Position numbers and translations under genes: made by a program | Shown here: positions 49,431 through 52,520 of the stretch, in pieces | Layout of the letters: each line of letters starts with the position of its first letter | How positions within the stretch are numbered: the first letter of the stretch is position 1 | The notes under the pieces: generated by a model | The model's database searches: none | What the model was told of the DNA's origin: nothing | What the model saw: the letters and a program-made list of their open reading frames with translations, nothing else | From: Methylotenera sp. RIFCSPLOWO2_02_FULL_45_14 | GTDB taxonomy: Bacteria; Pseudomonadota; Gammaproteobacteria; Burkholderiales; Methylophilaceae | Reading direction: 5' to 3' | NCBI GenBank assembly: GCA_001803395.1 | Contig: MHBU01000007.1 | Coordinates: 32,026 to 96,025, forward strand | Length of the DNA stretch: 64,000 nt

Positions 49431-50330
<900 letters not shown>

Positions 50331-50376: not shown

Positions 50377-51987
50377 TCACAGTGTTTTGCTAAACACTTT
50401 AGATTTACGCTGAAAATTGTAAAGTTTTTGTTTTTCAGCGGGTAATTTTTCTATATTTTGTTCAATAAAGCCGCGCTCTAAAAACCAGTGCTCAGTACGA
50501 GTAGTTAAGCAGAATAAGCTTTTAAGTCCCTGTTCTTTAGCCAAGCTGGCACAAAAATAGAATAACTTATCGCCCCGCCCGCCGCCTCTGTAGGCAGGGT
50601 CTATCGCCAGGCATGCAAACTCTGCGGTTTTTTCAGCTATAAACGGATACAGCGCCGCGCAACCGATAATGCGGTTATCGTGTTCCATCACATAAAAATG
50701 GTTAATTTCCATCTCAATGCGCTCACGTCCGCGCCGCACTAAAATACCCTCAGTTTCAAGCGGCTCAATCAGTTTTATTATGCCGCCAACATCCTCAATG
50801 TTGGCTTGGCGCATGCTTTCTAAGCTTAGCTCCGTCACCATGGTGCCAATGCCCTCAAGCGTGAATAGCTCTTGAATAATCGCACCGTCAATGTGCCTGG
50901 AAATGAGATGCGTGCGTGCCACGCCATGCTCGCAAGCGCGTACAGCGGCAGGAAGGTAGTAATTAACATCTTCTGAAACATTAATTGCTTGCTCATTTTC
51001 TCGCACGTTGCGCAGAAAATTCTTCGCTTTTTCGGCAGTCATTTCACGCAATAATTCACCACGTAAATTATGCACACCTTCAGAATCCATCAAAAAAATG
51101 AGCTTGTCAGCATCCAGCGCAATCGCAGCACTGACGGCTACATCTTCTAAACTTAAATTGAATGCTTCGCCTGTAGGCGAATAGCCAAGCGGTGATAGCA
51201 TCACTAATTCGCCATCGTCCAAGCGTTTTTGAATACCAATCGCATCCACTCTACGCACTTCACCCGTATGTTGTAAATCTACGCCATCACGTACACCTAG
51301 CGGTTTGGCCGTTACAAAGTTGCCACTAGCAACACGAATGTCGGAGCCAGCCATAGGTGAGTTGGTAATCCCCATTGAAAGCAATGCTTCAATTTCTACT
51401 CTAACTGCGCCGTTGGCTTCTTTAACCGCTTCCATGGCTTTATCATCGGTTGCGCGTAAACCGTTATGAAATATGGGCGTGAGTTTGTCGCGTTTTAAGC
51501 GCTGCTCAATTTGCGGTCGCGCACCATGCACCAGCACTAGCCTGACCTCAAGGCTGGCAAGTAAATTAAGGTCGTGCGATAGCGCGATGAACTGTTGCTC
51601 ATCAACCACCTCACCACCAAATGCAATCACAAACGTACGCCCGCCAAACGCATGAATGTAAGGCGCGGCAGAGCGAAACCAATGTACAAAATCTTTAGCA
51701 TTGGTATTGTTGATTTTGTACGAAGCTTGTGTATGTGCGGTCAGGTAAGTGGGTTGCTGCTCTTTTACGCCAAATTGCGTTTCTGTGGCATCACTCTCAG
51801 CGTAAAGGTTAGCTGGCGTTGTATTTAGCGCAGTTGCAATTTTGCGTAGCAAAGCCTCAGAAACGCCTAATTCACCACGCTCAATGCGTGATAAATTGCC
51901 TGCGTCAGCCTCTATTTTAGAGGCGAGCTGTTGTAGTGTCAGGTTGAGTGATTTGCGCTTAGTGCGGATGAAATTACCAAGAGACAT
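50377..51987 (-). CDS. argA: N-acetylglutamate synthase with N-terminal XRE-type DNA-binding domain
   Basis: First enzyme of arginine synthesis (acetyl-CoA + glutamate). The 536-aa frame is uninterrupted and longer than the ~440 aa of a standard ArgA. Residues 1-62 are an XRE/Cro helix-turn-helix: LNLTLQQLASKIEADAGNLSRIERGELGVS (in overlapping parts), ending NTTPANLY. A linker (63-98) follows. The amino acid kinase-like domain (about 99-385) has FVIAFGGEVVDEQQ, LVHGARPQIEQRL and LSPLGYSPTGEAFNL. The GNAT domain (about 390-530) has IEDVGGIIKLIEPLE, CLAIDPAYRGGGRG and LTTRTEHWFLERGF. The ATG follows an AT-rich promoter region with two TGTA-N5-TACA palindromes. The fusion suggests a synthase that may also bind DNA; this is inference. 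Confidence 0.93.
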   Translation of the reverse strand: MSLGNFIRTKRKSLNLTLQQLASKIEADAGNLSRIERGELGVSEALLRKIATALNTTPANLYAESDATETQFGVKEQQPTYLTAHTQASYKINNTNAKDFVHWFRSAAPYIHAFGGRTFVIAFGGEVVDEQQFIALSHDLNLLASLEVRLVLVHGARPQIEQRLKRDKLTPIFHNGLRATDDKAMEAVKEANGAVRVEIEALLSMGITNSPMAGSDIRVASGNFVTAKPLGVRDGVDLQHTGEVRRVDAIGIQKRLDDGELVMLSPLGYSPTGEAFNLSLEDVAVSAAIALDADKLIFLMDSEGVHNLRGELLREMTAEKAKNFLRNVRENEQAINVSEDVNYYLPAAVRACEHGVARTHLISRHIDGAIIQELFTLEGIGTMVTELSLESMRQANIEDVGGIIKLIEPLETEGILVRRGRERIEMEINHFYVMEHDNRIIGCAALYPFIAEKTAEFACLAIDPAYRGGGRGDKLFYFCASLAKEQGLKSLFCLTTRTEHWFLERGFIEQNIEKLPAEKQKLYNFQRKSKVFSKTL

Positions 51988-52006: not shown

Positions 52007-52019
52007 TGTAATGTTTACA
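52007..52019. promoter_or_regulatory. Palindrome 1 upstream of argA (TGTA-N5-TACA)
   Basis: TGTAATGTTTACA, a 13-bp dyad 20 bp upstream of the argA start. It has the same layout as a second site centred 30 bp away. It is a candidate operator for the XRE domain fused to ArgA; binding is not shown. Confidence 0.45.
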
Positions 52020-52036
52020 TAAATATATAATAAAAA

Positions 52037-52049
52037 TGTAAAAAATACA
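52037..52049. promoter_or_regulatory. Palindrome 2 upstream of argA (TGTA-N5-TACA)
   Basis: TGTAAAAAATACA, with the same TGTA-N5-TACA arms as the site at 52007. Between the two lies TATATTTA/TATTAT-like sequence on the minus strand, which could be the -10 region of argA. Two dyads flanking a promoter would suit autorepression. Confidence 0.4.
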
Positions 52050-52520
52050 AATTTTATTTAAATGGTAGTTTTTTAAAATCGTACGATTAGGATGGATTTT
52101 ATTATCTGAGATGCCGTTAACGGCCCAGAGTGTGTTAAAACGTTTTTCAAGTTTTACAGGTGGGATTAGCAGCTAACATTAAGATGTAAATTATGAATTT
52201 TGTGGTGTTAGACGGCAATATTAAGCCTGGATATTTAATATTGGTGGGGAATTTATCGCTAACTACGATTTATTTGTGTTTTTACACGGCCTCTGCCAAA
52301 AACCATCATTAGTCCTAACTTGATTCAAGCCTGGATTGATGAGTCAAATCTAGATCTCACTACCCCCCTTTTTTTCATCATTGATAGGAAAAACCGGTCA
52401 CAGCTTAATTAGAGTAGGCCAAAAGTTCAAGTTAAGATACGACTAAATGATAAAGCTTGATAATTACATGCAAATGAATATCCGTTAATGGCACATATTA
52501 ATCTAAGAAGATTTCTCTTT

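Follow-up and report, generated by a model that had tools for sequence, protein, structure and literature searches.

An XRE-type helix-turn-helix fused to N-acetylglutamate synthase in Methylophilaceae and a candidate operator pair at its own promoter

In the family Methylophilaceae, N-acetylglutamate synthase (NAGS, ArgA) was found to carry an XRE/Cro helix-turn-helix (HTH) domain at its N-terminus, and a conserved pair of dyads that may serve as operators lies just upstream of the gene. Judging from sequence comparisons, we consider that the fusion protein probably represses its own argA(B) promoter; it would then be a two-function protein, acting both as N-acetylglutamate synthase and as repressor of its own promoter. 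The gene studied here is located in a stretch of 64,000 nucleotides (the window) of contig MHBU01000007.1 from Methylotenera sp. RIFCSPLOWO2_02_FULL_45_14, whose genome (the own genome below) comprises 2.13 Mb in 35 contigs.

The argA gene (50377..51987, minus strand; ORF call, Pfam, and NCBIfam) runs from an ATG at 51987 to a stop codon at 50377-50379 and encodes 536 amino acids within an open frame of 545 codons. The original prediction had described a single unbroken 536-residue frame in which an HTH is followed by a linker of about 35 residues and a complete ArgA; the coordinates, the length, and the linker size given there were right, and the domain order was confirmed by Pfam and NCBIfam. 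The HTH domain (residues 3-62; 51802..51981, minus strand) exceeds the cut-off of two Pfam families, HTH_31 (residues 3-60; 33.3 bits, cut-off 27) and HTH_3 (residues 7-59; 31.2 bits, cut-off 23), and is also found in a structure model, which contains five helices in this part (residues 3-13, 18-25, 29-36, 44-53, and 58-72). The model, with block-mean pLDDT values of 77-88 for residues 1-60 and a mean of 49.6 over its whole length, can be relied on in the HTH and in part of the GNAT domain only. Based on this model and on conservation, residues 29-36 (AGNLSRIE; 51880..51903, minus strand) are the predicted recognition helix. A solved relative of the HTH part is ClgR (3f51, 24.4 bits). Pfam gave no match of the fusion protein to the ArgR DNA-binding domain (PF01316).

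A linker recognized by its variable sequence and length (residues 63-99; 51691..51801, minus strand) leads to the NAGS N-helix and amino-acid-kinase domain (residues 100-387; 50827..51690, minus strand) and then to the GNAT acetyltransferase domain (residues 391-536; 50380..50817, minus strand), both of which were assigned using Pfam (AA_kinase at 118-363, 103 bits; GNAT at 429-508), NCBIfam, and a solved relative. In NCBIfam, residues 94-536 correspond to the amino-acid N-acetyltransferase PRK05279 (689 bits, cut-off 344) and residues 100-536 to TIGR01890 (573 bits, cut-off 202.85). The best solved relative is the classical hexameric NAGS of Neisseria gonorrhoeae (2R8V, 294.7 bits), the match to which starts at fusion residue 95. 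The two proteins share the kinase-like and GNAT domains as well as the lysine, the glutamate, and the loop of the arginine site, but the gonococcal enzyme has no HTH.

Chance, a frameshift, or an assembly join was rejected as the source of the fusion, given that the same domain order is present in 132 of 132 extracted family genes. The original prediction had named a protein start inside the frame, past residue ~90, as evidence that would speak against it; the window gene contains no ATG, GTG, or TTG between codon 46 and codon 120, which rules out a complete HTH-free ArgA made from an internal start in this gene. Among relatives, 33 of 132 do have an in-frame ATG or GTG within the 40 codons that precede residue 100, at varying positions.

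We then analyzed the distribution of the fusion. A protein search matched 180 of 187 Methylophilaceae genomes, and nearly all full-length matches among those listed include the HTH, starting at residue 1-3. Genes whose N-terminus could be read were extracted from 132 genomes, in which each of the 24 genera sampled from the family is represented, and each of the 132 genes encodes the fusion, including those from genomes of 1.2-1.4 Mb. The 48 matching genomes left out of this set include some contig fragments and also G181, in which a run of N between the HTH (residues 1-64 there) and ArgA puts the two parts in different frames. Named relatives carrying the fusion are Methylotenera, Methylophilus, and Novimethylophilus, with Methylotenera mobilis 13, M. 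versatilis 7, and Novimethylophilus kurashikiensis La2-4 as cultured or named hosts. The most divergent ArgA proteins are those of genus g2, whose near-complete genomes of ~1.2-1.4 Mb have kept the HTH; in part of this lineage it is joined via a very short linker.

Beyond the family, matches listed for the order sample (399 genomes, 390 matching) start at residue 76 or later with one exception. This exception, a match in family f50 (G501) that starts at residue 28 and runs through two stops, was considered as a remnant of the fusion and rejected, as we read no HTH frame in its DNA. Matches listed for the class sample (274 genomes, 229 matching) start at residue 70 or later with three exceptions (G790, G722, and G750), which start at residues 54, 62, and 63, respectively, and run through stops. 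In the phylum sample (200 genomes, 191 matching, many of them through argB), no HTH in an open frame was present among the matches listed. All these searches cover this particular HTH, and an ArgA with a quite different HTH would escape them. The fusion thus appears to be a trait of the family Methylophilaceae, with none seen outside it among the matches listed, which answers for the order sample the question of its spread that the original prediction had left open. A metagenome-assembled genome titled Sulfuritalea sp. (L252) has a Methylotenera-like argA fusion (83% identity); the name of this record may be wrong.

Multiple alignment of the 132 family proteins revealed that HTH residues 17-54 are free of gaps in all of them. 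In the recognition helix, L32, S33, and E36 are invariant, and N31 (131 of 132), I35 (130), R34 (127), and G30 (122) are nearly so; past this helix, G38 and R37 are present in 128 and 126 genes, respectively. Pooled dN/dS was calculated from 38 within-genus pairs of seven genera (dS 0.1-0.9), which are not independent of each other. The kinase-like domain has the lowest value (0.017), followed by the GNAT domain (0.035), the HTH (0.056), and the linker (0.180). These values indicate that the HTH is under purifying selection in the family. The suspicion that it might be a degenerate remnant in the relatives, raised with the original prediction, does not survive the near-invariant core and the low dN/dS. 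It could still be a passenger, or a pure oligomerization module that binds no DNA, and its faster evolution compared with the catalytic domains (0.056 vs. 0.017-0.035) would fit such a role. However, the near-invariance of the recognition helix, the retention of the HTH in genomes of ~1.2-1.4 Mb, and the existence of conserved candidate operators make this highly improbable.

Two candidate operators, both dyads of the form TGYA-N5-TRCA, were identified upstream of argA in the window. O2 (TGTAAACATTACA, arms TGTAA/TTACA) occupies 52007..52019 and O1 (TGTATTTTTTACA) 52037..52049, neither being assigned to a strand; in the own genome they correspond to G000:C7:84032-84044 and G000:C7:84062-84074, respectively. 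They are 30 bp apart, centre to centre. Between them is a -10-like hexamer, TATATT (52022..52027, minus strand), and inside O1 we read, from the sequence and the two-box alignment described below, a weak -35-like TTGTAT (52045..52050, minus strand) at 17 bp from the hexamer. The -10-like element is conserved as TAnnnT directly before O2, with T/A/T at 0.80/0.83/0.78 in 110 family upstreams. By consensus the embedded promoter is weak: TTGTAT agrees at 3 of 6 positions of the -35 consensus, and a consensus scan reported neither this element nor the -10-like hexamer. Since the -10-like element immediately precedes O2, O1 would lie over the -35 region and O2 over the expected transcription start, a layout typical of a repressor. 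If self-regulation is direct, it is very likely to be repression rather than activation.

A crude count of inverted arms gave a weak signal (at least 13 matching positions in 48% of upstreams vs. 15% of shuffles) and was replaced by a motif model, in which a motif and its reverse complement are placed at a free spacing (offset 20-45). After three upstreams that were shorter than 95 nt or contained N had been dropped from the 132, this model was applied to 129 upstreams and chose one and the same spacing, offset 24-26 or 30 +/- 1 bp, in 110 of them. A held-out test was also carried out, with a motif trained on the 46 upstreams of g1, the genus of the window, and applied to 83 upstreams from the 23 other genera. 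Of the 83, 51 had the pair at a spacing of 30 +/- 1 bp; when the near genus g19, which contributes 13 of these, is left out, the count is 38 of 70. The five shuffles gave 3, 11, 7, 9, and 12 of 83, and the control region -200..-105 gave 14 of 83. Scores of at least 8 were reached by 46 of the 83 held-out upstreams vs. 2 of 415 shuffled sequences and none of 83 control regions. When the family-wide model was used, scores of at least 12 at the same spacing came from 103 of 129 upstreams, which are also the set used for fitting, and from none of 387 shuffled sequences, 128 control regions, and 18 outgroup argA upstreams.

Some lineages depart from this arrangement. In g2, seven of ten pairs are found at offsets 36-38, that is, ~42 bp apart (L163-L172), and in several of these ~42-bp pairs O2 touches the start codon. 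Another spacing was chosen in three of six genes of g16, several g15 upstreams have low scores and some depart in spacing, and the single g23 sequence scored -7.5.

A palindrome conserved upstream of the own gene is what is seen for regulators with an XRE/Cro HTH. The paired dyads, the held-out test, and the absence of the pair in outgroups independently support regulation of the own promoter, which the original prediction had offered as an example. On this sequence evidence, direct self-regulation at O1 and O2 seems likely.

Whether the fused HTH itself reads these sites was approached through covariation in the 110 upstreams with the 30-bp pair, the 19 of 129 without that spacing being left out. 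Half-sites are mostly TGT in 67 upstreams and mostly TGC in 33; the 10 ties were dropped. Leucine occupies residue 40 in 65 of the 67 TGT-type sequences, whereas the 33 TGC-type sequences have mostly glutamine there (28, with four Ile and one Leu), as do eight of the ten ties. Residue 29 is Ala in 65 of 67 TGT-type and Ser in 22 of 33 TGC-type sequences. Residue 40 ranks first among 66 columns but was picked after the fact, and columns 51 and 50, which lie away from the recognition helix, are also in the top four, so that shared descent explains part of the covariation. When corrected with a tree of the catalytic part, the data were reduced to four independent pairs on well-supported branches, of which, on average, 2.4 changed in the expected way, none against it, and 1.6 showed no difference (sign test, p 0.25-1); restricting the count to the left half of O2 gave 1.9 for and 0.5 against. 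The covariation between HTH and operator is not significant after tree correction, and we regard it as suggestive. Three loci filed under g1 (L093-L095), which have the Q40/S29 HTH and mixed or TGC operators, group with the g15-filed L119 on the ArgA tree, away from the genera under which they are filed; L092, which is outside this tree, resembles them.

Genome-wide searches were made with two models. The two-box alignment was built from 28 of 48 different g1/g19 sequences, the more canonical ones being kept, and its invariant columns therefore flatter the motif; the one-box alignment contains 20 of 97 sequences. With the two-box model, the best match in the own genome is the argA pair (E 3e-9). 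Of the 20 genomes searched, 17 have their best match (E < 1e-5) just upstream of argA, many of these sequences having built the model. With the one-box model, the matches are weak; in the own genome, the top two are O2 and O1 (E 0.04 and 0.10). Sites matching TGTAANNNTTACA with at most one mismatch are not in excess in the own genome (91 sites vs. 129 in the reversed control).

These results bear on a different explanation, namely that another regulator binds O1 and O2 while the fused HTH acts elsewhere or just helps assembly. The own genome has three HTH_3 matches in a whole-genome scan, the fusion protein (35.8 bits) and two others which could supply such a regulator, and the lack of significance on the tree also speaks for it. 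On the other hand, the pair is absent before argA in the fusion-less outgroups (0 of 18), the argA pair is the best two-box site of the own genome, and the half-site base tracks HTH residues 40 and 29. Palindromes before the own gene are, moreover, described as commonly bound by XRE proteins in the available part of a study of such regulators (PMC12565409). Overall, another regulator at O1 and O2 is quite improbable, and we retain the fusion protein as the predicted ligand of the pair.

In the window, argA is followed after 61 bp by argB (acetylglutamate kinase; 49431..50315, minus strand) on the same strand, and downstream of argB are a pyrimidine 5'-nucleotidase gene and then a SlmA homologue. 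Within the fetched flank, argB was found on the strand of argA in 45 of 53 family argA loci vs. 0 of 19 outgroup loci. The adjacency is thus a family trait, and the fusion and the argA-argB operon arrangement may have arisen together. Since argB follows argA on one strand in most family loci, we take argA as the main predicted target and argB as a target by co-transcription. In several genera, argA comes after a gene ending in ...LWGDF, presumably the C-terminus of RsmE (L036, L053, L132, L137, and others). Additional dyad-like pieces, TTTTGCATAAAACGCAAAA and similar ones, occur at the end of this gene in g16 and g17.

What the protein might respond to is suggested by its arginine site. According to the portion of the structural work available (PMC4490483), gonococcal NAGS is a ring of six subunits formed via the kinase-like domains, in which each N-terminal helix is interlaced with that of a neighbour across a two-fold interface; arginine, bound next to this helix, moves it, the hexamer contracting by ~20 A along the three-fold axis and the ring widening by ~10 A. 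The arginine-site motif given in the same source is E-(L/I)-(F/M)-(T/S)-X-X-G-X-G-T, together with K201 and E270 of the gonococcal enzyme, which align with K295 and E373 of the fusion (counted by hand from the alignment). The corresponding loop, ELFTLEGIGT, spans residues 373-382 (50842..50871, minus strand). K295, E373, T376, G379, G381, and T382 are present in 132 of 132 family genes, and the only departures from E-L-F-T-X-X-G-X-G-T over all these genes are one Ile and one Tyr.

A search for ArgR (PF01316) found no match over cut-off in 60 family genomes, two weak ones being below it, and the E. coli positive control was matched; in the order sample, none of 100 genomes had a match. Arginine regulation in these 100 genomes must then rest on something else. 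As ArgR is lacking order-wide, its lack cannot by itself explain the fusion.

Considering that the HTH is attached just ahead of the N-helix, HTH pairs on the ring and their arginine-dependent movement would follow. As in the gonococcal enzyme, a NAGS hexamer would form via the kinase-like domains with interlaced N-terminal helices of neighbours, and the HTH domains on these helices would come in two-fold pairs. With O1 and O2 occupied by such pairs, RNA polymerase would be kept from argA and, wherever both genes share a transcript, from argB as well. Arginine, bound next to the N-terminal helix, would move it and most likely alter operator binding besides inhibiting catalysis, so that one ring would exert both kinds of feedback, on catalysis and on transcription. 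Taken as a whole, this picture of the Methylophilaceae NAGS ring as an arginine-gated repressor, in which one allosteric ring stops both catalysis and argAB transcription, much as ArgR would, in a lineage without ArgR, is tentative, its chances being somewhat below even. For arginine as the physiological signal the chances are evenly balanced; this link is based on the conserved arginine-site residues and on the gonococcal structure as described in the available portion of its report (PMC4490483).

Self-regulation could also be real with a signal other than arginine, such as acetyl-CoA, glutamate, N-acetylglutamate, or the amount of the protein itself (plain autogenous homeostasis). Most XRE regulators are said, in the accessible part of the study cited above (PMC12565409), to bind upstream of their own frames; such binding would call for no metabolite, and the arginine-site residues may be invariant solely through feedback on catalysis. 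Against this, the HTH is placed just ahead of the very helix that arginine moves in NAGS (PMC4490483, in part), and the part of g2 that keeps the HTH on a very short linker favours mechanical coupling. A signal other than arginine is rather unlikely, albeit to be taken seriously.

No account of an HTH-NAGS fusion was found in the open literature (titles and abstract openings, among the matches listed). ArgH(A) is another arginine-pathway fusion involving the NAGS step; to our knowledge, both ArgH(A) and NAGS/K are enzyme-enzyme fusions with no DNA-binding domain. The argA fusion resembles NadR of enterobacteria, in which an XRE-type HTH precedes pathway enzymes (NMN adenylyltransferase and ribosylnicotinamide kinase) and which represses pathway genes; however, NadR has an unrelated enzyme, pathway, and regulon. 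BirA and PutA use DNA-binding folds other than XRE. ArgR/AhrC, a hexameric protein that mediates arginine-responsive control of arg genes, is a functional analogue of the argA fusion. Unlike the fusion, it is a separate protein without enzyme activity and has a large regulon, and the available part of a comparative study reports its reconstruction in 62 genomes of 6 taxa as well as control of nadA-pnuC by NadR (PMC5343134). NAGS/K of Maricaulis and Xanthomonas is mentioned as a fusion at the NAGS step in the portion of the NAGS paper at hand (PMC4490483). BirA and PutA are presented, in the part of a review that was accessible, as trigger enzymes, that is, metabolic enzymes directly repressing the operon of their own pathway (PMC6978683), but they belong to other pathways and neither is an arginine enzyme. 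The proposed logic of the argA fusion is the same as that of trigger enzymes; as far as the open literature shows, the enzyme, the pathway, the whole-family distribution, and the defined candidate operator pair are new. For an entire family of methylotrophs (methanol and methylamine users), the fusion suggests, in a form open to testing, how arginine synthesis may be regulated in betaproteobacteria that lack ArgR. It would provide an example from nature of one ligand that could govern the activity of an enzyme together with the expression of its gene.

The fusion protein might also be a wider regulator with targets beyond argAB. Two exact extra copies of TGTAANNNTTACA were found in the own genome, one at what we take to be the metX/metW junction and one inside an ABC-transporter ATPase gene, presumably pstB. 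An exact TGTA-N5-TACA core is present in the first metW codons in 17 of 20 Methylotenera-like (g1/g19) genomes, with one mismatch in two of the others and one not read. G062, of another genus, has TGCA-N5-TACA at the metW start, and exact TGYA-N5-TRCA occurs in 25 of 880 random 60-nt pieces of metW loci. In three of the seven genomes with one-box matches, the metW dyad ranks above that of argA. In addition, all 13 metW loci read by pattern (out of 15, one of the other two being read later) share the same spelling of five codons (NN-V-.-I-T), compared with 9% for other conserved metW codons. On the other hand, the dyad is coding and lies partly within the metX stop overlap, and most copies were picked by DNA match. 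Outside g1 and g19, 14 of 15 genomes lack the dyad, and G135 has a broken one. With 150 candidates scored per genome, the matches whose neighbours were examined include no site at other arginine genes. A wider regulon is thus improbable, and the metW dyad, whether a coding coincidence or a second target, is best taken as a lead. In the own genome it is located at G000:C22:18884-18904 (L234), and other metW starts are found in L229-L243 and L291-L299.
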